Shown: positions 7,103 to 64,000 of the stretch, one piece after another
Layout of the letters: the number at the start of each line of letters is the position of its first letter
How positions within the stretch are numbered: the stretch's first letter is position 1
NCBI RefSeq assembly: GCF_026627255.1
Contig: NZ_JAPNLM010000025.1
Span: 62,001 to 126,000 of the forward strand
DNA length: 64,000 nt
Direction: 5' to 3'
From: Streptomyces antarcticus
GTDB lineage: Bacteria; Actinomycetota; Actinomycetes; Streptomycetales; Streptomycetaceae
Program-made: the position numbers and the translations under genes
The notes under the pieces: generated by a model
The model's input: only the letters and a program-made list of their open reading frames with translations
Told to the model about the DNA's origin: nothing
The model's database searches: none

Positions 7103-7501
7103 CTACGGAAGGACCGCGACCCCGTCGAGTTCGACCAGCGCCTCTTCGTCCCAGAGGCGGACCACGCCGACGAGGGCCATCGCCGGATAGTCGCGGCCCG
7201 CCAACCGGCGCCAGACCCGGCCCAGTTCGGCCGCGTGGGTGCGGTACGCCGCCACGTCCGTCGCGTACACCGTCACCCGGGCCAGGTCCGCCGGGGCGCC
7301 GCCGGCCGCGGCGAGGGCGGCGAGGAGGTTGGCCAGGGCGCACTCGAACTGCTCCGGCAGGCTCTCGCCCACGACCTTGCCGGAGGTGTCGAGCGCGGTC
7401 TGGCCGGCCAGGAACACCAGCCGGGAGCCGGTCGCCGCCACCGCGTGCGAGAAGCCCGTCGGCGGCGACAGCTCGGCCGGGTTGATCCGCTCCAGGCTCA
7501 T
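7103..7501 (-). CDS. RidA-family protein of aromatic-CoA cluster
   Basis: 132 residues with the RidA layout: FSHAVAATGSRLVFLAGQTALDTSGKVVG, FECALANLLAALAAAGGAPADLARVTVYATDV, and the C-terminal ALVGVVRLWDEEALVELDGVAVLP. Its start overlaps the acyl-CoA dehydrogenase stop by four bases (ATGA), so the two are translationally coupled. RidA proteins hydrolyse enamines and imines. Here the neighbouring flavoprotein is of the kind that turns 2-aminobenzoyl-CoA into a non-aromatic enamine-type CoA ester. A role in removing the amino group is an attractive inference. As in several RidA subgroups, the classical active-site Arg is not obvious. Confidence 0.82.
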   Translation of the reverse strand: MSLERINPAELSPPTGFSHAVAATGSRLVFLAGQTALDTSGKVVGESLPEQFECALANLLAALAAAGGAPADLARVTVYATDVAAYRTHAAELGRVWRRLAGRDYPAMALVGVVRLWDEEALVELDGVAVLP

Positions 7502-8718
7502 CGTGCGACCGCCGCCCCGAACGGGCCGCCCGACGGGTCCCGCGCCGGGTCCTCGGACGGGCTGCCGGACGGGGCGGCGGGCTCGGCGCCCCGCGGCGCC
7601 GCCGGGAGGTTCCGGTACAGCTCCTTCGCGATGATCGTGCGCTGCACCTCGCTGGCCCCCTCGTAGATCCGCGGCGCCCGCACCTCCCGGTAGAGGTGTT
7701 CCAGCAGGTGGCCCCGGCGCAGGGCGACCGCCCCGTGCAGCTGCACGGCGTGGTCGACCACGTACTGGGCCGTCTCGGTGGCCAGCAGTTTCGCCATCGC
7801 GGCCCGGCGCGGCACGTCCGGGGAGCCCCGGTCGTGGGCGGCGGCCGCCGCGTACACCAGCAGCCGGGCCGCCTCCGTGCGGGTGGCCATCTCCGCCACC
7901 CGGTGCGCCACCGCCTGGAGGTCGCCCAGCACCCCGCCGAAGGCGGTCCGGGCCGCCGTGTGCGCGAGCGTCGCGTCGAGGGCGGCCCGGGCCATGCCCA
8001 CCGCGAACGCCCCGACGCTCGGCCGGAACAGGTTGAGGGTGTCCATCGCGACCCGGAACCCCTGCCCCGGCAGGCCGAGCAGATCCTCGGGTCCGACCGG
8101 GACACCGTCGAAGGCGAGGGAACCGATGGGGTGCGGGGACAGCATGTCCAGGGCTTCGCCGCCGAGGCCGGGGCGGTCCGCCGGGACCAGGAACGCCGAC
8201 ACCCCCTTCGCGCCCGGCGCCTCACCCGTCCGGGCGAACACGGTGTAGAAATCCGCCTCCGGGGCGTTCGAGATCCAGCACTTCTCGCCGCGCAGCCGCC
8301 AGCCCACCCCGTCGGGCACCGCCGCCAGCGCCAGCGCCGCCGCGTCCGAGCCGGCCCCGGGCTCGCTCAGCGCGAAGGCGGCCACCGCCCGGCCGGCCCG
8401 CACCTCCGGCAGCCAGCGGTCCCGCTGCGCGTCGCTGCCGGCCCGCAGTACCGGGTGAGCGCCGAGCCCCTGCAGGGCCAGCGCCGTCTCGGCCTCCGTG
8501 CAGCCGTAGGCGAGGGATTCGCGCAGCAGGCACAGGTCCAGCGCGCCCGAGGTGAACACCCGCTCCAGCAGGCCCAGCTCCCCCAGCGCCGCCAGCAGCG
8601 GGCGGTTGACCCGTCCCGGCTCCCCCTTCCCGGCGAGCGGCCCGAGCCGCTCGGCCGCCAGGGTGCGCAACCGCGCGCACCACTCCTCCTGCTCCACCCC
8701 GAGCGCGAATCCGGTCAT
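7498..8718 (-). CDS. acyl-CoA dehydrogenase
   Basis: A 406-residue FAD-dependent acyl-CoA dehydrogenase. Visible features are AFALSEPGAGSDAAA (flavin contact), CWISNAP, the RTAFGGVLGDLQAVAHRVAEMA helix and the C-terminal IYEGASEVQRTIIAKEL with the catalytic Glu of the isovaleryl/short-chain group. A disordered Ala/Pro/Ser tail of about 35 residues is added at the C-terminus. It would desaturate a CoA ester formed after ring reduction or ring cleavage. It is divergent from the CoA ligase and coupled to the RidA gene, with 145 bases of shared control region. Confidence 0.88.
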   Translation of the reverse strand: MTGFALGVEQEEWCARLRTLAAERLGPLAGKGEPGRVNRPLLAALGELGLLERVFTSGALDLCLLRESLAYGCTEAETALALQGLGAHPVLRAGSDAQRDRWLPEVRAGRAVAAFALSEPGAGSDAAALALAAVPDGVGWRLRGEKCWISNAPEADFYTVFARTGEAPGAKGVSAFLVPADRPGLGGEALDMLSPHPIGSLAFDGVPVGPEDLLGLPGQGFRVAMDTLNLFRPSVGAFAVGMARAALDATLAHTAARTAFGGVLGDLQAVAHRVAEMATRTEAARLLVYAAAAAHDRGSPDVPRRAAMAKLLATETAQYVVDHAVQLHGAVALRRGHLLEHLYREVRAPRIYEGASEVQRTIIAKELYRNLPAAPRGAEPAAPSGSPSEDPARDPSGGPFGAAVAR

Positions 8719-38272: not shown

Positions 38273-38548
38273 CGCCGCCCCGCGCCCCGCGCCCTCGCCG
38301 GCAGCCTGGCCTGGGTGCCGACCGGCACGCCGCCGCAGGACGGGCCCCACACCGGGGGCAGCACACCGGCCGTCGGCACCGAACCGCCGAGCGCCGGCAC
38401 CAGGGCGACCGTTGCCGCCATGACCGCACTGATCACGGGCAGGGTGGCCCGCGGGGAGCGGCCGGCCCCGGCGCCCGAGCCGGAGTTGCCGCTGACTCCT
38501 GCGGCCAAGAGCACAGGCATCGGTCGTGGCCGCAGGTCCGTATCGTCG

Positions 38549-38840
38549 TCACGCGAGGTCGGACAGCAGCACGTCGAGGACCGTCTCCTCCTCGACCCGG
38601 ACGGCGAGCTGCAAGAGGGCCTGCCGTAGATCCGGGTCCCACGGAGCCTCGGCCGGATGCCCTGCGAGCGCCGGGCCGTCAGGCCTTGCGAGCGCCGCGG
38701 CGCGGTAGTCGGCTGCCGTGTAGCGCCAGGGCCGCCAGGGGACGCAACGCAGCAGTACGGAAGCGATGCGGAGCCCGCCCCAGTCGAAGTCTCCGTGGTA
38801 AAGCAGTGTTGCCCCACCCTCGTGCAGGTGCCGCAGGGGA
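38549..38840 (-). pseudogene. jetD (TIGR02679/DUF2399) 3' fragment
   Basis: About 95 codons match the C-terminal end of the jetD gene at 57260-58528, from LHEGGATLLYHGDFDWGGLRIAS to VEEETVLDVLLSDLA, with the same stop position. Similarity continues about 15 bases past the stop (CGTCGTCACGCGAGGTCGG), so it is a DNA-level duplicate or a relic of a related operon. It keeps the DxD pair but lacks the catalytic Glu region and everything upstream. It is fused in a continuous open frame to the cut APC permease. Confidence 0.8.
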
Positions 38841-55466: not shown

Positions 55467-56025
55467 CTATCCGCGTGCCAACACGCCGTGAGGGATGTGC
55501 TTCAGGTGCCCCGGTTCTCTTTCCCCCGCGTAAACGAGGTGCAGATCATGACGCGCCCGAGTAGACATCACGTAGTACGCCATGCGCAGTTCCGCCGAGG
55601 TGGGATCCGTTCCTGCGTCGGTCTCCGTGTCAGGCACCACGACCGTGTCGAACTGGAGACCCTTGGTACTGGCCCGGTGGACGATGACGACGCCGGGGCG
55701 CGACGGGTCGAGAGTCCGGTAGCGGCCTGCCGTCGCTTGCGCCGTGTACATCTGCGGCCGGAGTCGCGGGGCTTTGCGTTCCAGCCGGGTGAGGATTTCG
55801 AACTGGGCCTGGGTGGAGTGCGCTACCACTCCGATGCTGCGGCCGGGTCGCGTCTCGGCGAATCCGATCAGCAGATCCGCCAGCGCTCCTTGATGCGAGA
55901 GCTAATGCAGCCGGGGCAAAGGGCCTTCCCGCTCCGGAAGTACCGGCAGTCGCGGTCCCGTGTGGAACCTGGCGCCGAGCACGGCTGTCTGCCGGGTGTT
56001 GCGGTGGTTGGCGTCGATCTCGTGG
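55467..56025 (-). pseudogene. UvrD/Rep-type helicase C-terminal remnant
   Basis: ALADLLIGFAETRPGRSIGVVAHSTQAQFEILTRLE, HRASTKGLQFDTVVVPD (motif V-like) and AELRMAYYVMSTRARHDLHLVYAG (motif VI-like, TRAR) show a superfamily 1 helicase C-terminus, ending at 55467. Upstream in the same frame, ANHRNTRQTAVLG also fits a helicase motif, but a TAG near 55903 interrupts it. The ATP-binding N-terminal part is missing. Confidence 0.6.
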
Positions 56026-56034
56026 GGTGAGCAT

Positions 56035-57135
56035 TTACCCAAGCGACGACTCGGCCTCCTCGACACCGCGTTCCGCCCAGCGCAGGGCCTCGTCCGGGCG
56101 GCCCGCGGTGTCCAGTTCGCGGGCGATGAGCAGATGGGTGCTGCCGTCCGGATCGAGGTCGGCCGCGTGGACGGCGACCACGGCGTCCACGTCGCCGCCC
56201 GCCTTGGCCAGGCGCTCCATCAGGTACTTCTCCGCCCAGCCCGTGCGGTTGCCGCGCCACGCCTCGGCCGCCAGTCGCCGTACGGTGGCCATCCCCTGTG
56301 CGCCGAGGACTTCCTCGTAGTCGAGGGGGTCGATGCCGGTGAGATCGTCCACGTCGCCGAGCAGGTGCTCGACCAGCCAGGGCGCCAGCTCCCCGGGGTC
56401 GGGCGGCGTCGCACGGCACGCGTCCAGGTGGGCCTCGGCCAGCTCGGCGCCGACCTCGCCGAGGCGCCCGTCGGAGTCGTCGATGCTCTCCTGTACGGCG
56501 TGCAGGAGGCGCATCGCCTCCCGCGCGAGGGAGAGCGCGTCGGCGGCCCGGCCGGCGGAGGTCAGCGCGGTGATCGCGGACACGGCCTGCGCTGCCTGGT
56601 CGCCGTAGGCGCGGGCGTCGGCGTACTCGACATATCCGTACTGGGCGAAGGGGCCGATGTCCAGGAGCTCGCGGACCCGGGCCCGGACCTCGTCGAGATC
56701 CCCGCGGGCACTGGCGGCGCGCAACTCCAGGCGGCGGCGCAACTGCGGGTCCTCGCCGAGCTGTTCCCTGACGAGCGCGAGCAGCTCCTCCCTGGACAGC
56801 GCCGCCAGCCACGCGTCCAGGCGCCGGGTGCGGGACCGGGCCCGGGTGCGCTGCCCCGGCAGGCTCTCCGCGCGGGACAGCGCGGTCAGCCCGACCGCGA
56901 CCAGGTGCTTGCAGAAGTTGCCCTCCAGGCCGTACGGGCAGTCGCACTCTCCCGAGGGCGCGTCGCCTCCGTCGAGGGACAGCTCCACCGCGTAGGGGTG
57001 CGTCCCGTGCACGGTGGCGGTGACCCAGCCGTCACCGACCTCGGTGACGGTGACGGCGTCCAGATACTCTTGGGCCCTCTCGAAGGAGCGCCGGCCGGCG
57101 ATCGCGCGCAGGCCCGTCTCGGTGAAACCGGTCAT
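56035..57135 (-). CDS. SWIM zinc-finger protein, possibly 3'-truncated
   Basis: 366 residues. The SWIM motif CxCx(n)CxH is ECDCPYGLEGNFCKHLVAVGL at residues ~63-83. The rest is helical TPR-like (ELRAASARGDLDEVRARVRELL, WAEKYLMERLAKAGGDVDAVVAVHAADLDPDG). Relatives in actinomycetes usually run on for several more helices; here the frame ends EEAESSLG right at the junction with the helicase remnant, so the last part may be lost. SWIM proteins bind DNA or protein. It directly precedes the Wadjet operon in position but is 124 bases downstream of its last gene. Confidence 0.75.
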   Translation of the reverse strand: MTGFTETGLRAIAGRRSFERAQEYLDAVTVTEVGDGWVTATVHGTHPYAVELSLDGGDAPSGECDCPYGLEGNFCKHLVAVGLTALSRAESLPGQRTRARSRTRRLDAWLAALSREELLALVREQLGEDPQLRRRLELRAASARGDLDEVRARVRELLDIGPFAQYGYVEYADARAYGDQAAQAVSAITALTSAGRAADALSLAREAMRLLHAVQESIDDSDGRLGEVGAELAEAHLDACRATPPDPGELAPWLVEHLLGDVDDLTGIDPLDYEEVLGAQGMATVRRLAAEAWRGNRTGWAEKYLMERLAKAGGDVDAVVAVHAADLDPDGSTHLLIARELDTAGRPDEALRWAERGVEEAESSLG

Positions 57136-57259: not shown

Positions 57260-58528
57260 TCACGCGAGGTCGGTCAGCAACGCGTCGAGGACCGTCTCCT
57301 CCTCGACGCGGACGCCCAGTTCCAGGAGAGCCTGCGGCAGGGCCGGGTCCCAGGGAGCCTCAGCCGGCCGGCCGGCGAGTGGCAGGCCCTCTGGACCCGC
57401 GAGCGCCACCGCCGCGCGGTAGTCAGCGGCCGTGTAGCGCCACGGCTGCCAGGGGACGCGGCGCCGCAGTGCGGAGGCGATGCGCAGGCCGCCCCAGTCG
57501 AAGTCTCCGTGGTAGAGAAGTGCCGCTCCGCCCTCGTGCAGACGGCGCAGGAGGGCAAGCGCTGCGGCCGACGGCTGGCCCTGAAGGCAGACCAGCGGCG
57601 CGGAGTGCGGCCCGTGCCGATCGGCTGCCGCCGCCAGCACCGCCGGGTTCTCGCAGATGCGGATGGTCGCGTCGGACACCTGGGGAGAGTGGCGTACGAG
57701 CTGCCGCAGCGTCAGAACGGAGGGCTCACCCGCCGCTGCCATCCAGTCCAGGGCAGGCGTGCCCCGCAGGTTCAGGGTGAGGACCGTCGAGGACAGCTCG
57801 TCGCGGAGCAAGCCCGCCGATGCCCAGGCCTCCCGGCGCCATTCGGCGCCGGTGCCGTCGGGGAAGCCGGTCAGCGCACGGATACCGGCCAGGGTGACGG
57901 TGGCCGGCGGAGTGCCGTCGTCCAGGGCGTGGGCGCTGCCGAGGACCCTGGCCGCAAAGGCAGGAAGCGAGACGGGAGGGTCCGCGGGGAGGGCGCGGAG
58001 GGCGGTGGCGGCCTGGCCGAGCAGGGCCTGAGCTGCGACAGGCGTGCCGGCGAGGCGTCGTACCAGGCCGTCGCCGCGGATCCTGGCGGCCCAGACGGCG
58101 AGGGCCGGGACCTCCTGCGCGAGGGCTTCGAGCGGGGCGTACGCGGCCTGCCACGCCCGGTCCTCGGCCTGACGGGCGGGGCCGAGCGGAACGACCGGCC
58201 CGGTGAGTACGGCCACGGCGGCGGTGAGTCCGTCGGGACTGATGCCCGAGCGGCGCAGGATCGCGTCCACCTCGTCGAGCCGGACGGTCACGGAGAGCCC
58301 GCTGCCGGGAGAACGGCCCAGCAGCCGCTCGGCCGCCACCCGTTGGGCCGCGGTGGGCGCGCCGAGGGAGACCGGGCCGGTGAGGGACTGCTCGCGCTCC
58401 AGGCGTCGGCGTGCCCGGTCAACCAGCCAGTGGAGTTCGGGGGTGCCCAGCAGACGACGCAGCCGGTCGGCGTCGACCGGGGCAGCGTCGACCGGGGCAG
58501 CGTCGACCGGGGCAGCGTCGGATGTCAC
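57260..58528 (-). CDS. jetD: Wadjet JetD: toprim-type nuclease subunit (TIGR02679)
   Basis: 422 residues from GTG 58526-58528, overlapping the jetC stop. The N-terminal ~270 residues correspond to DUF3323. The C-terminal DUF2399 is a topoisomerase VI/toprim-like fold with acidic residues E293 (ICENPA) and D342/D344 (YHGDFDWGG), plus a late acidic pair near 410. JetD is the subunit that cuts plasmid DNA extruded by the SMC complex. A 15-base triplicate repeat gives an APVDA run at residues 6-20. A 95-codon copy of its 3' end sits at 38549. Confidence 0.92.
   Translation of the reverse strand: MTSDAAPVDAAPVDAAPVDADRLRRLLGTPELHWLVDRARRRLEREQSLTGPVSLGAPTAAQRVAAERLLGRSPGSGLSVTVRLDEVDAILRRSGISPDGLTAAVAVLTGPVVPLGPARQAEDRAWQAAYAPLEALAQEVPALAVWAARIRGDGLVRRLAGTPVAAQALLGQAATALRALPADPPVSLPAFAARVLGSAHALDDGTPPATVTLAGIRALTGFPDGTGAEWRREAWASAGLLRDELSSTVLTLNLRGTPALDWMAAAGEPSVLTLRQLVRHSPQVSDATIRICENPAVLAAAADRHGPHSAPLVCLQGQPSAAALALLRRLHEGGAALLYHGDFDWGGLRIASALRRRVPWQPWRYTAADYRAAVALAGPEGLPLAGRPAEAPWDPALPQALLELGVRVEEETVLDALLTDLA
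58471..58515. repeat. three exact 15-base tandem repeats in jetD
   Basis: CGTCGACCGGGGCAG occurs three times in a row, encoding the Ala-Pro-Val-Asp-Ala run at the JetD N-terminus. The unit is a multiple of three, so copy number can vary without a frameshift. Confidence 0.9.
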
Positions 58529-61500
58529 GTCCACAGAGGCTCCGCTCCCACCGCTTCCTCCTGCGGGGCCGGCTCCGCGTTCCGCGACCGCACCGGGTCC
58601 TCTCGGCGCAGCCGCCGGTTGCCGTCCCATTCCCAGCGGGTGACGAGTACCGCCGCCACCTCGTCGATCCGCGAGAGCTGCGCGATGGCGACGCCGGGCA
58701 CCTGCGGATAGCAGGCCCACTCCCGTTCGCTCGTCATCACCACGTCCAGGTCGAACGCGTGCAGCAGGCCGAGGCACTTGGCACGCGAGTCGTCGTCCAC
58801 TCCCGCGAATGCCTCGTCGAGGGTGACCAGGCGGGGCGCGTACGGACTGCCGGCGCTCGCATAGTGCGAGGAAGCCGCAGCGAACAACGGTACGGACACG
58901 GCAAGGACCCGCTCGCCACCCGAGGCCGGGCCGGTGGCCGGGACCCAGCGGCCGTGCTGATGCCGTTCGACCCCGAATTCGTGCCAGGCCCGGTAGTCGA
59001 GCGCGGCGGTGAGGTGTTCGAGCCAGCTGCCGGAGGTGTCGTCCGTCTGCTGCCGGGCGATCTGTGTCTGGAGGAACTCACCCACCGCCGCCCGGTCCTC
59101 CGGGGTCCAGGCGTCGGCGGACTGGCGCAACCGCTCACGGGCGGCGGCGAGACCGGAGGGGGCCTTGCGGGAGGCCCGCCAGACCAGCCGCAGCTTCATC
59201 CCGGTGGAGGTGGGGCGGTCCTCCAGTTCACCGTTCATGTCGCGCACCTGCCGTTCGGCGGCCCCGATGAGTTCCTGGAGGGTGCCCGCGACCTCGGTGA
59301 TCAGATGGGTTTCGAGGATCTCCCGCTCATGGGCGGAGAGGATGCGGGTGAGTTCGCCGACTTCGGCGGTGAGTGCCTCGGCGAGCTCTGGTACGGCGCG
59401 CTCACGGCCCTGGTAGACGATGTCGACGACCATGCCGTCCTCCACCATCCGGGCGGAGGCGGTGTGCCCGTGCCGGGAGAGGGTGTCCTGCAGGGTTTTG
59501 TGTTCCTCGCTCAGTCGTCGCTGTACGCGTTCCCAGGCGCTGTCCGAGTCGTCGGTCGACGCCAGCCCGGACTCGATGGCCCGGGCGAGCGTGATCGCCG
59601 GGGTGGCCGCCCAGGGGGCGTCCCCCTCGGCCGGCATCGGAAGGTCGGGCAGGGCGACCGCGATCAAGCCGGTAGCGGTGAACCGCTGGAGCCCCGCGAT
59701 GGCTTCCGCACGTGTCCCCGCTGCTTCCGCGAGGTTCTTTTCCAGACGCTCGATATGGCCTTCGGCCTTGCTCGCCTCCCGGTCGGCCTCGCCGTGGCGC
59801 TGCCGGGTGATCCTCTGGTCCGCCTCGCAGGCCCGCAGGGCTTCGGCGGTCTCGGTGAGCCGGCGTTCGAGTTCGGCGACGGCCGCGCCGACGGTGGAGC
59901 GCAGCGTGGTGTGGCGCTCGTCGGCAGCCACCGCCTCCCGCCCGGCCTCATCGGCGCGCAGGGTGAGTTCGGCGGTCCGCTCCCCGGCCTGCGCGGCCTC
60001 GGCGCGTTCCTCCTCGGCCTGGAGGACCGCCTCACCGCGTTCGCGCAGGGTCGGCCACAAGGCGGCCAGGGCCACGGCGAGGGAACCAAGGGCCCGGCGC
60101 ACCTCGGCCAGGGCGGCCCGGTCGGCGGGCAGACCGAGTTCGGCCGTGGTCCCCGCGAGTTCGGTGGCGGCCGCTTCGGCCCGCCCGGCCGCCTCCGCCA
60201 GGTCGGCGACACGCCCCTCACGGCGCATGCGAGTCCGACGCACCGACTCGACGGCAGCGGCCACCTGGGCGTGCGCCCGGGTGAGAGGGCTGTCGTCGGG
60301 TACACCGGCCAGCTCGGCATCGAGGGTGCGGCGGCGTGCGGCCACAGCTGCGGACTGCGCCGTGACCGTGTCCGACTCATGCTGGAGCAGGTCGAGTTCA
60401 GCATGCAGAGTGGCGATGCGAGCCCGCCGCGCCGCCTCCCGCGCCCCCTCCCCGACGTACTCGGCGACGGGCTTGGCCCAGCGGCCGGTCAGCGCGCCGA
60501 CCCGGAAGCGCCCGTCCGACCCCACCCAGGTGCCCGCTCCGCCGTCCTCTCCCGCGCCGATGGCGGCGAGCAGCCGTGCCACCGTGTCCTCGCCCACCGC
60601 CGCGGCCTGCGCATCGCCACTGTCCACGGCCGGGCGCAGCAGCCCCCCGAGCGAGGGCCCGGCCACTGGCCCGGTCATGGGAGCGAGGAGTACGTCGTGC
60701 CCGTCTGCGGCGAGGGCGGAGCCGTCGGGAAGCACCCAGGCGTCGAGCAGTCCAGCGGCTTGCAATGCCGCCTCCAGTCCCGCGCGTTCCGGTTCGGAGA
60801 GGCCGTCGTGGAAGTCCACCAGGCGCCACAGTGGTGCGCCCGAGAGCCGCTCGCGCAGGCCGGGCGTGCGGCTGAGCGGCGGTCGGGGACCTCGTCGGCC
60901 GCCTGCCTCCAGCGTGGTGAGTTCCTCGCGGAGCCGGTCGACGCGTACTGCCAGCTCCGTCGTCCGGCGCGCTGCGTCGGCCGCCTCGTCTGCCAGTTGC
61001 GCCGAGGTCGCGCTGTGGGCTCGTACCGCGTGCACGCGGGCCGGGTAGGGCCCGTCGAGGTGTCGCGTCCAGTCCTGGAGTTCGTCGAGCAGGCCGACCG
61101 GGTCGGGGTAGGTCAGCTGTGTGCAGGCGCGCGCATGTTCTCGTACGTCGTCCAGCAGCGCCTGCCCCGCCCGTGCGGCTGCTTCCTCCGCCTGGCCCTG
61201 CTCCGCAGTGGTCTGGTCGAGGTCGGCATCCGCCTCGTCGAGGCGGACGGATGCCTGCCGCTGCCCCTGGGCCGCCCGCTCAGCCTTCTCTGCGAGATCC
61301 TCCGCGTGGGCGAGCGCACGATGCCCGCGGTCCATCGACTGCTCCGCCGCGCGCCGCAGTTCAGGCCACGGCAGCCCGTCATCCCCCGGCAGGTCGATCC
61401 GTGCGGCAGCGGCCGCGTCCCGTGCTGTGCGGAAGGTGTCCTCGGCCAGCCGGTGAGCGGCGCGCAGCCGGTTTTCGGCCGTGCCGAGCCGCCCGAGTGC

Positions 61501-62649
61501 CCGGGAGTGCAGGCCCGCCGCCTGGTCCAGGTCGTCCCTGGCCTGGTTTCGGGCGCGGTCGGTTCGCTCCGCCTCCTTGGCCGCTTGCTCCAGCTCCCGG
61601 GCACTGCGCATCTCGGGGCCCTCGCGCAGGGCCGCGTCCTGGGCCCGCAAGCGCGCCTGGGTCTCTTCCAGGGCGGCGATCCGTTCTTCTGCCGCCGCCC
61701 GTGCCTCCTGGGCACGGGTCTGCTGGGCCTGTGCCTCGGCGAGGTCCCGCTGGAGGTGTTCGTAGCGGGAGTGCTCCCCGCGTGGGATGCGGGCGCGTCG
61801 GCGGGTGACGATCCGGGCGTAGCGCCGGTAGTGGTCCAGGAAGGCTGTGGCCGCCCGCTCGGCGGCGGAGGCGGCCATCAGTTCCTCCTTCTCCTCGTCC
61901 AGGGAGCGGAAGGCTTCGGCCACATCGGCGATGACCGCCTGGTCCATGGGCGGCAGCGCCTCGGTGAGGGCTCGGGACAGGGCTGCCTCGTTGGGGCGTT
62001 TGGACAGTTGCGGCTGGCGGAGCTGGATGAGCAGGTCGACCAGAGCGCCGTACCGTTGCTCGCCGAGTCCGAAGAGTGCCTCGTCGACGGCCCTGCGGTA
62101 GGTCTTGGCCTGGTCGTACACCATGCCGTGCGCGGCGACTGCCTCGGCGAGCCGGTCCCTGGACAGGGCCGTGCCGGTGGCGTCGAGCAGGCTGAGGGAC
62201 GTCTCGGCGGTGGCCCCCGGTCCGTGGTCGACGCGCTGGCTGGTGAGCGCGAACCAGTGGCGTGCGATGCCCCGTCCGCTGACCGCCTTGAGTCCGCAGA
62301 GCAGCGTACGGAAGTGCTGCTCGCCGGTGGTCTCGTCGAGCCTGCCGAACTCGATCCAGGTGTAGCCGAGCCGCTCGGAGTGCGGATGCTCGCCGCCGAG
62401 CAGCAGGTTCCACTCCATCCGCTTGCCCGGGTCGCCGTCGGGCTCGACCCGGCGCGAGCTGAGGTCCCCGTCGAGCAGGAAGGGCAGGGTCAGGGCGAGC
62501 ACCTTGGACTTGCCGGTGCCGTTGTTCCCCCGCAGCAGCAGCCGCCCGTCCCTGAAGTGGAACTCCTCCACGTCGTAGTGGAAGAGGTCGACGAGTCCGA
62601 TGCGCAGGGGCTGCCAACGGGAACGCAGGGGATCGGGAAGGCGGGTCAC
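58525..62649 (-). CDS. jetC: Wadjet JetC: SMC/MukB-like ATPase (TIGR02680)
   Basis: 1374 residues. The N-terminal ATP-binding head has Walker A GNNGTGKSK at 41-49. Two long coiled-coil arms flank a central hinge at roughly 650-760 (GRRGPRPPLSRTPGLRERLSGAPLWRLVDFHDGL). The C-terminal head has the signature SGGER from 1243 and Walker B LVTLDEAFAGVD at ~1273-1284. It is the loop-extruding motor of the Wadjet complex, distinguishing small circular DNA from chromosome. Its start overlaps the jetB stop (ATGA), and its stop overlaps the jetD start (GTGA). Confidence 0.93.
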   Translation of the reverse strand: MTRLPDPLRSRWQPLRIGLVDLFHYDVEEFHFRDGRLLLRGNNGTGKSKVLALTLPFLLDGDLSSRRVEPDGDPGKRMEWNLLLGGEHPHSERLGYTWIEFGRLDETTGEQHFRTLLCGLKAVSGRGIARHWFALTSQRVDHGPGATAETSLSLLDATGTALSRDRLAEAVAAHGMVYDQAKTYRRAVDEALFGLGEQRYGALVDLLIQLRQPQLSKRPNEAALSRALTEALPPMDQAVIADVAEAFRSLDEEKEELMAASAAERAATAFLDHYRRYARIVTRRRARIPRGEHSRYEHLQRDLAEAQAQQTRAQEARAAAEERIAALEETQARLRAQDAALREGPEMRSARELEQAAKEAERTDRARNQARDDLDQAAGLHSRALGRLGTAENRLRAAHRLAEDTFRTARDAAAAARIDLPGDDGLPWPELRRAAEQSMDRGHRALAHAEDLAEKAERAAQGQRQASVRLDEADADLDQTTAEQGQAEEAAARAGQALLDDVREHARACTQLTYPDPVGLLDELQDWTRHLDGPYPARVHAVRAHSATSAQLADEAADAARRTTELAVRVDRLREELTTLEAGGRRGPRPPLSRTPGLRERLSGAPLWRLVDFHDGLSEPERAGLEAALQAAGLLDAWVLPDGSALAADGHDVLLAPMTGPVAGPSLGGLLRPAVDSGDAQAAAVGEDTVARLLAAIGAGEDGGAGTWVGSDGRFRVGALTGRWAKPVAEYVGEGAREAARRARIATLHAELDLLQHESDTVTAQSAAVAARRRTLDAELAGVPDDSPLTRAHAQVAAAVESVRRTRMRREGRVADLAEAAGRAEAAATELAGTTAELGLPADRAALAEVRRALGSLAVALAALWPTLRERGEAVLQAEEERAEAAQAGERTAELTLRADEAGREAVAADERHTTLRSTVGAAVAELERRLTETAEALRACEADQRITRQRHGEADREASKAEGHIERLEKNLAEAAGTRAEAIAGLQRFTATGLIAVALPDLPMPAEGDAPWAATPAITLARAIESGLASTDDSDSAWERVQRRLSEEHKTLQDTLSRHGHTASARMVEDGMVVDIVYQGRERAVPELAEALTAEVGELTRILSAHEREILETHLITEVAGTLQELIGAAERQVRDMNGELEDRPTSTGMKLRLVWRASRKAPSGLAAARERLRQSADAWTPEDRAAVGEFLQTQIARQQTDDTSGSWLEHLTAALDYRAWHEFGVERHQHGRWVPATGPASGGERVLAVSVPLFAAASSHYASAGSPYAPRLVTLDEAFAGVDDDSRAKCLGLLHAFDLDVVMTSEREWACYPQVPGVAIAQLSRIDEVAAVLVTRWEWDGNRRLRREDPVRSRNAEPAPQEEAVGAEPLWT

Positions 62650-63884
62650 GGCTTGCTGGCCTTTCGCTGCGCGGGCATACGTGCGGTGCCGGGTTCGAGT
62701 ACGACGGTCTCGCCGACCGCGTACCGGGCGAGGGCCGGGCGGGGCGCCACACCGTGGGCGGTACGGGAGACCAGCCCGAGCGCTGCGAGCCGGGCGACGG
62801 CCTGTTCCACGAGCTCGGCTTCCATGCCGGGCTCCCGCGCGGACTTGGCCCAGAATCCGCCGTGTTCGGCGGCGAGTTCCCGGACTCGGAACGCCAGCCG
62901 GTCGGTGGCGACGGGGCCTCCCGCCGCCGCCAGGTGCTCGGCGAGCAACAGCGTGATGTGACCGTGGGTTCCCTGCTCGGGCATCCGGACGTCGGTGAGG
63001 TCGTCGTCGGGGTCGACCATCGCGATGCCTTCGGCCCGCACCTCGGGGACCAGGCCGGTCAGCTCGGTGATGCGGGCGGTGAGGAAGCCCCGCTGCCGGG
63101 TGAGGTAGCCGAGCTCGGCGTCGGTCAGCTCGTCGTAGTACAGGACCGGCCCGTCAAGGAGCCTGCGGGTCAGCGAGCGCCGCATCGCGCGGAAGCGCAG
63201 TTCGTCGCTGTCCAGAGCGGTCTCGGCGATGAGTTCGGCGAGGCGCTCATCAAGAGTCCCGGCGTGCACGGTGGAGGGGCCGCGGCGCGCGGCGAGCAAC
63301 CCGGCCAGCACACGCCGTTCCACGTCGTACAGGACATCGCCGGCTCCGCTGACGTAGGCCTCCTCGTCGCCGGCCACGCGCCGCAGCACGCCGAGGCTGA
63401 GCAGGAGCCGTACGACGGCGGCGAGGTCGAGGCGCTCGTCGCGCCGGTCCAGAGTGAACTGGATGCCCGCCCGGGCGAGGTGAGGGTCGGCGGCGTCGAG
63501 AACGACCTGGTCGGCGAGGCGGCCGAGTGCGATCTGGGCCTCGCCGCGTTCGAGGGCGGCGAGGGCGAGACAGAGCAGGACGTAGCGGCGCCGTGTGAAG
63601 GGGGCGGCTGCACGGGTCGCCTCACGCGCGGGGTGCGTGGGGTCGCTGAGGACACCGGGTATCTTCCGCAGGCGAGCCGCCTCGGCATCCGTCTGGAGGG
63701 ACCACCCGGTGTTGCGGTCGAACCATTCGCGCAATTCGGAGGCGTGCCGGCGGACAAGGCGGAACTCGTCGGCATATCGGCCGTGGGCGAGCAGGAGAGG
63801 TTGCTTGAGCAGGGCGCGAGCCGCCTTGCGAACGTCGGCTGCGTGCTGGCCGTCGAGCACCTCGGCGAGCGGGGTGCTGTTCAT
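62646..63884 (-). CDS. jetB: Wadjet JetB: TIGR02678/DUF2398 kleisin-associated subunit
   Basis: 412 residues matching TIGR02678. The N-terminal helices include ADVRKAARALLKQPLLLAHGRYADEFRLVRRHASELREWFDRNTGW. The middle has TRRRYVLLCLALAALERGEAQIALGRLAD. The C-terminal winged helices have LTRRLLDGPVLYYDELTDAELGYLTRQRGFL and THGHITLLLAEHLAAAG. It corresponds to the MukE-like KITE subunit that helps bridge the kleisin and the SMC heads. It overlaps both neighbours by four bases. Confidence 0.9.
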   Translation of the reverse strand: MNSTPLAEVLDGQHAADVRKAARALLKQPLLLAHGRYADEFRLVRRHASELREWFDRNTGWSLQTDAEAARLRKIPGVLSDPTHPAREATRAAAPFTRRRYVLLCLALAALERGEAQIALGRLADQVVLDAADPHLARAGIQFTLDRRDERLDLAAVVRLLLSLGVLRRVAGDEEAYVSGAGDVLYDVERRVLAGLLAARRGPSTVHAGTLDERLAELIAETALDSDELRFRAMRRSLTRRLLDGPVLYYDELTDAELGYLTRQRGFLTARITELTGLVPEVRAEGIAMVDPDDDLTDVRMPEQGTHGHITLLLAEHLAAAGGPVATDRLAFRVRELAAEHGGFWAKSAREPGMEAELVEQAVARLAALGLVSRTAHGVAPRPALARYAVGETVVLEPGTARMPAQRKASKP

Positions 63885-64000
63885 CGGTCCTCGCCTCCGT
63901 CCGTCAGGTCGATGATCTCGATGAGGTGGTCGGGGCCGCGGAAAACGCCTCCAGCTGTCCGGATCTCTGCCGTGCCGCCGTCGGCGAGCGAGCTGAGCCG
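63881..64000 (-). CDS. jetA: Wadjet JetA (TIGR02677), C-terminal end only
   Basis: The last 39 codons (LSSLADGGTAEIRTAGGVFRGPDHLIEIIDL ...) and the TGA at 63881-63883 are in the window; the rest lies to the right. The stop overlaps the jetB ATG by four bases. Identification as the TIGR02677/DUF2397 kleisin-like subunit rests on its place in the conserved order, since too little sequence is visible for motif recognition. Confidence 0.75.
   Translation of the reverse strand, partial: RLSSLADGGTAEIRTAGGVFRGPDHLIEIIDLTDGGEDR

Follow-up and report, generated by a model that had tools for sequence, protein, structure and literature searches.

The stretch of DNA analysed here (the window: 64,000 nucleotides of Streptomyces antarcticus, G000:C17:62001-126000) ends within an operon, jetABCD, in which an earlier note made from the letters of the window had recognised a Wadjet-type anti-plasmid defence system. 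The genome is an 8.5-Mb draft in 89 contigs, and contig C17 ends at position 128411; G numbers designate genomes of the genus, G000 being that of the window, and L numbers designate fetched loci. The four genes lie on the minus strand and are listed below with their NCBIfam scores (curated cut-offs in brackets), domains and PADLOC profiles.

63881..64000, minus strand: jetA, last 39 codons in the window; the complete gene scores 557 bits with TIGR02677 (cut-off 166), DUF2397, JetA2 PDLC00536 at 6e-207
62646..63884, minus strand: jetB, 412 amino acids; TIGR02678 368 bits (cut-off 125), DUF2398, JetB2 PDLC00543 at 2e-149
58525..62649, minus strand: jetC, SMC-type ATPase, 1374 amino acids; TIGR02680 1215 bits (cut-off 463), SbcC_Walker_B, JetC2 PDLC00553 at E=0
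57260..58528, minus strand: jetD, toprim nuclease subunit, 422 amino acids; TIGR02679 328 bits (cut-off 196), DUF3323 and DUF2399, JetD2 PDLC00557 at 2e-141

The four-base overlap reported at each junction was confirmed (ATGA, GTGA and GTGA); for jetD, the longest open reading frame (ORF) begins at 58777, and the start that overlaps jetC, giving 422 amino acids, is 58528. The complete jetA was found at C17:125881-127443, extending 1443 bases beyond the window end and encoding 520 amino acids from an ATG start with no internal stop. A missing or broken jetA past position 64000, named beforehand as what would refute a Wadjet, is therefore excluded, because the rest of the contig completes the gene. 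Comparison was made with 80 named relatives from Streptomyces or Actinacidiphila, 72 of which have matches to all four genes; four-base overlaps occur in 66, 67 and 42 of these 72 at the A/B, B/C and C/D junctions, respectively, so the tight overlaps are the family norm and nothing special. Near the N-terminus of jetD, a 15-nucleotide unit is present three times (window 58475-58519, encoding AAPVD three times), forming a possible slippage tract.

Profile searches with PADLOC, NCBIfam and Pfam agree with the assignment to Wadjet type II that had been proposed from the families TIGR02677, 02678, 02680 and 02679. Indeed, with jetA complete, all four proteins exceed the curated NCBIfam cut-offs, the best PADLOC profiles are JetA2, JetB2, JetC2 and JetD2, and the type II gene set stands in one operon. 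JetC matched PDB entry 9qe0 at 5e-70 and JetA at 4e-24, and both also matched 9qe1. These entries are taken as the type II complex of N. vireti described in PMC12647877, to which they were linked through gene names and type, and the matches to 9qe0 suggest that this complex, nvJET, as far as the available text describes it, is a distant relative of the one encoded in the window. JetB had no match in PDB by sequence, and JetD matched only an unrelated pilin, at E=0.11. A JetD model built with AlphaFold2 from 30 sequences (mean pLDDT 83.9, pTM 0.64) had the nuclease MksG of C. glutamicum (8b7f, E 2e-4) as its top Foldseek match, and VIA-align gave Z scores of 12.4 to topoisomerase VI A and 8.3 to P. 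aeruginosa JetD (7til), with Spo11 and MksG also matched in the range 8.3-12.4; JetD as modelled has a topoisomerase VI-A/Spo11-like fold. The operon shares with known type II systems the four families, the A-B-C-D order, the overlaps, and the ATPase and toprim motifs, and no protein feature was seen that would separate it from them. EptABCD of Mycobacterium smegmatis is a type II system. It is likewise an SMC plasmid-restriction operon in an actinobacterium, compared here only by its description in the available part of PMC10586767.

The ATPase motifs of JetC (Walker A GNNGTGKS, signature SGGE, Walker B VTLDEAF) are all intact, and JetD has the glutamate of ICENPAV and the aspartates of GDFDWGG, in keeping with the intact Walker motifs, toprim acidic residues and undamaged frames described previously. 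These motifs are retained almost throughout the named relatives (Walker A 72/72, SGGE 72/72 and DEAF 71/72, counting for JetC only relatives long enough to contain the motifs; JetD ENP 79/80 and GDxDW 79/80). Every frame is open in 70 of the 72 relatives with all four genes; the two flagged were L078, with one stop within jetD, and L106, flagged only since the alignment overruns the gene end. Nei-Gojobori ratios of nonsynonymous to synonymous substitution (dN/dS) against six relatives (L076-L079, L086 and L111) were 0.11-0.17 for jetA, 0.11-0.15 for jetB, 0.19-0.24 for jetC and 0.23-0.28 for jetD, and all four genes are under purifying selection (dN/dS 0.11-0.28). Open frames, intact motifs and purifying selection support the description of the system as apparently live, and, judged by its sequence, this is a type II Wadjet of the ordinary kind with all its parts intact. 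It is unlikely that the operon is intact yet silent or inactive in this strain: gene fragments do border it and there is a fossil second jetD (see below), but all four genes are open and their dN/dS against the six relatives is clearly below 1.

Among 150 genomes of the genus, matches (fragments included) were found to jetD in 57, to jetA in 52 and to jetB in 51. Both jetA and jetB are present in 47 (lists read by hand, with a weak case in G100 excluded), so that about a third of the sampled congeners hold a type II Wadjet; 20 of these 47 form the window clade, defined by jetB identity of at least 60% and including G000. This frequency agrees with the published enrichment of Wadjets in Actinobacteria (42% of genomes) in the available text of PMC10482375, in which Wadjets are also described as common in Streptomyces and located towards chromosome ends. 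The operon itself adds a further type II Wadjet to a genus already rich in Wadjets, and its interest lies in its address.

Past the window, about 0.7 kb upstream of jetA, lies a 72-nucleotide match (C17:128144-128215; L002 10145-10216) to the 3' end of a rumA-family methyltransferase gene, whose full copy in the same genome is at G000:C15:4277-5620. The methyltransferase has one match in each of the 150 genomes, and in the copy tested, that of G078, TRAM and tRNA_U5-meth_tr domains were recognised, with a score above the rumA cut-off. Short copies of the 3' end were found in 16 of the 80 named jet loci and the full gene in 3, amounting to 18 loci together. Every short copy at these loci is oriented as jet, and the reversed core pattern had no match in the same 1.59 Mb of jet loci. 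Site copies flank L084 and L110 on both sides, as they do L098, where the downstream copy is weak, delimiting units of about 10-11 kb; in the genome of the window, a single repeat was seen, which would be the left end of the unit upstream of jetA. When the whole methyltransferase gene and its flank were used as query, 33 of 42 short matches (some loci counted twice) were copies of the 3' end of about 70 nucleotides; 7 lay elsewhere in the gene and look chance-like, and of the other two, one fell in the flank only and one was a full gene truncated where the locus stops. L002 9538-9777, situated between jetA and the site copy, bears a weak AMP-binding (acyl-CoA ligase) resemblance, below the Pfam cut-off, and appears to be a gene remnant.

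The surroundings of the core differ between short copies and full genes. Of 41 short copies, 28 carry a left-arm motif like TGACGCTCGTTTGACGCTC, positioned at about -103 relative to the core, which none of 28 full genes has (random 70-nucleotide windows: 19/2400), and a right-arm motif at +90 to +240 was found in 20/41 short copies and 18/28 full genes (random 150-nucleotide windows: 48/2400). Identical sites were counted once, 'full' was judged by the frame upstream, and the 69 sites come from loci picked partly for holding sites. Left arms only at displaced copies, with right arms beside both kinds, form the pattern expected from integration at the 3' end of the gene. A 40-nucleotide core pattern, with up to 3 mismatches, was found in 134 of the 150 genomes, the reversed control matching in 0. 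Extra copies within 200 kb on the methyltransferase contig were downstream and on the same strand in 30 of 31 cases among the rows listed (hand count); further extra copies lie farther away or on other contigs. The window-clade operons divide into 12 on the methyltransferase contig and 8 on other contigs, and 7 of the 12 are downstream on the methyltransferase strand within 127 kb, including those of G149 (1.1 kb), G017 (2.4 kb) and G139 (9 kb). In G063 and G133, sites enclose a second, divergent type II Wadjet lineage. The site was found in none of 50,697 phage records nor, by exact pattern, in viral contigs.

Five tyrosine integrases borne by such arrays (G080, G092, G112, G007 and G033) are 84-98% identical, and each lies near a homologue of a 68-amino-acid HTH_17 protein that is excisionase-like, below cut-off. 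The pair in G080 is located as follows.

L177:7012-8373 (G080): tyrosine integrase and excisionase-like gene; integrase at 7285-8373

The integrase family was found in 19/150 genomes. It is on the methyltransferase contig in 15, always downstream on the strand of the methyltransferase, within 176 kb in 14 and at 1.06 Mb in one, and elsewhere in 4. The order in G024 is integrase, site copy, jetABCD, and in G001 the integrase ends 0.5 kb ahead of a site copy. Eleven array integrases were searched against the 80 named jet loci and gave a single, distant match, in L133 and away from the jet genes, and the remaining ORFs picked from the units of L084 and L110 encode helicases. The units that carry Wadjets appear to lack an integrase and to be bounded by att-like sites. 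Other recombinases may nevertheless occur in jet units, because at least one true integrase escaped the scan for catalytic motifs. Further tyrosine recombinases of about 224 and 464 amino acids were seen near the site-linked integrase in some genomes. The jet unit would dock by site-specific recombination at copies of the methyltransferase 3' end, in tandem with other defence units, and the catalyst would probably be the dedicated tyrosine integrase that some neighbouring elements carry in relatives.

Several observations weigh against this reading. The copy next to the operon is accompanied by right arms (+122 and +142) but not by the left arm, a motif also missing from 13 of the 41 short copies; no right end was found for the unit in G000, whose full methyltransferase gene is on a different contig (C15) from the jet operon (C17), and G000 has no match to the site-linked integrase at E 1e-60. 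Among the 12 same-contig operons of the window clade, 2 are on the other side of the methyltransferase within 121 kb and 3 are more than 600 kb away, and 62 of the 80 named jet loci have no site within the fetched DNA. As regards function, elements bearing RepSA, an integrative class, average 3.2 in the 20 window-clade genomes and 2.1 in the 130 others, in counts entered by hand and uncorrected for kinship or genome size. Their depletion in Wadjet genomes, considered across the 150 genomes, was accordingly rejected in view of the slight enrichment; since RepSA elements are not rarer in type II Wadjet genomes, no exclusion footprint was seen for this class.

Some of these points would be expected if the short methyltransferase copies were random debris of duplication or gene conversion, their clustering with jetABCD reflecting an unstable chromosomal region: the copy beside the operon lacks the left arm, most named jet loci have no copy, and the region is rearranged in relatives. 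Such an origin is nevertheless improbable, given that 33 of 42 short matches are the same stretch of about 70 nucleotides and 7 lie elsewhere in the gene, that the copies beside jet have a single orientation, that the arm at about -103 accompanies displaced copies and never the 28 full genes, and that a conserved integrase with an excisionase-like gene is linked to the locus. Taken together, the operon is very probably a type II Wadjet located in what looks like a small integrase-less unit, docked site-specifically at copies of the rumA-family 3' end in tandem with defence units.

The few other site-bordered stretches that were scanned, in which many ORFs were left unscanned and some look metabolic, hold genes of several kinds. 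G116 has a type I restriction-modification system, an AbiU-like protein, a kinase and a UvrD-like helicase; G029 has pPIWI-RE genes; G134 has BrxC/PglY and BrxHI with AbiU; and G136 has a ribbon-helix-helix/Fic pair and a TIR protein, the latter found again in G112. PIN proteins occur in such stretches of G116 and G098. Linear Streptomyces plasmids are also represented: in L156 and L157, stretches encoding a giant protein with a CHAT protein and a protein secreted by a type VII secretion system lie between two site copies, and in L158 a C-terminal integrase remnant directly precedes a site copy. The site-bounded stretch L174:2857-11310 (G014) encodes proteins of 764 and 2021 amino acids that have no PADLOC match, the larger one with a weak AAA match, and adjoins a Fic-like gene; it is a candidate for a defence system of unknown kind.

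BREX, restriction-modification and pPIWI-RE genes are likewise bordered by such sites, and this bears on whether the operon could be a housekeeping chromosomal condensin of the Muk/Mks type instead of a defence system. An SMC-type ATPase with all motifs kept, and the kinship of Wadjets with MukBEF/MksBEF, would suit a condensin, but the shared borders, the patchy presence of jetA and jetB and their deletion in several relatives, and a nuclease subunit under selection make this highly improbable. For the genus as a whole, it seems probable that the 3' end of the rumA-family methyltransferase gene is a docking site in Streptomyces, at which a tyrosine integrase and its excisionase-like partner would recombine a core of about 70 nucleotides with arms at fixed distance, stacking integrase-less defence units (two type II Wadjet lineages, BREX, pPIWI-RE, type I restriction-modification, TIR and toxin-antitoxin pairs) in tandem, also on linear plasmids, with the Wadjet of the window as one unit.

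No description of this docking site was recognised in the literature searched. As far as the available text of PMC5704250 goes, the cis-mobilizable elements (CIMEs) and the tandem accretion of integrative elements likewise involve att-bounded units that lack an integrase and are stacked where one particular gene has its 3' end; here, in contrast, the cargo identified in the putative units is largely defence genes. Streptococcal integrative and conjugative elements also target the rumA family (PMC4701971, in the part available), but with a serine integrase that inserts inside the gene, whereas here a tyrosine integrase is linked to the site and the full gene stays open. If real, the docking site would provide a concrete reason for the recurrence of unrelated defence systems at one Streptomyces location, a handle for further defence systems, to be looked for between site copies, and a testable pair of integrase and site.

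The activity of the window complex and its discrimination of topology and size are inferred by analogy with studied Wadjets. Wadjets extrude DNA and cut small circles, and linear or >100-kb DNA escapes, according to the available text of PMC10586767, which draws mostly on type I work; the N. vireti type II complex is described as cleaving naked circular DNA in vitro (PMC12647877). By that analogy, JetC together with JetA and JetB would load onto DNA and extrude loops; once the motors had exhausted the DNA of a small circle, JetD would cut it, so that small circular plasmids would be lost and linear or very large DNA would escape. Relatives of type II were found on plasmids in 24 of 72,556 records, all below 60% identity and the shortest record being 66 kb, which has little bearing on linear replicons. 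Deletion of jetABCD eased conjugation in Clostridium cellulovorans, as stated in the available text of PMC12287153, and deleting such a Wadjet could ease plasmid work in Streptomyces.

A fifth conserved gene was considered, namely the DUF6880 ORF at 56035-57135 (SWIM-like by eye) that adjoins jetD, and was rejected as its recurrence is too rare: among 27 genus loci it lies beside jet only in G078, a fossil locus, with a partial match in G096, 2 kb upstream of jetA and cut by the locus end. The earlier description of the DNA to the left of the operon as full of broken genes holds at the two places examined, the only ones checked: a UvrD-like fragment at 55467-55901 (Pfam UvrD_C_2, just under cut-off) and the following remnant.

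38543..38837, minus strand: second jetD remnant, 3' end only (about amino acids 328-422), 298 bp matching the live jetD at 82.6% DNA identity

This remnant keeps GDFDWGG, is missing the ENP glutamate, runs in frame to its own stop and is spliced into an amino-acid-permease frame (Pfam AA_permease_2); the rest of a second jet operon was not found in the window. Its origin from an element that had inserted into jetD and displaced the 3' end was considered, which the orientation of the remnant fits and the remaining evidence does not: no PF00589 match lies between the two jetD copies, no site or arm was found at the fossil, and the stretch between the copies carries kdp and other chromosomal-looking genes. 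A simple rearrangement is more likely.

Remnants are also found in relatives. At the G078 fossil locus, pieces of jetA codons 1-206 are directly joined to jetD codons 340-422, followed by the downstream gene of the window at 89% identity. Only jetD pieces remain in G134, G026, G060 and G129, with a weak one in G089, and G110 has a jetC end with jetD; window-clade remnants at high identity numbered one with the jetA query (G078) and none with the jetB query. Because a jetD remnant in the window is accompanied by deletion remnants in relatives, the system has been lost more than once, and it is jetD 3' ends that persist most often.

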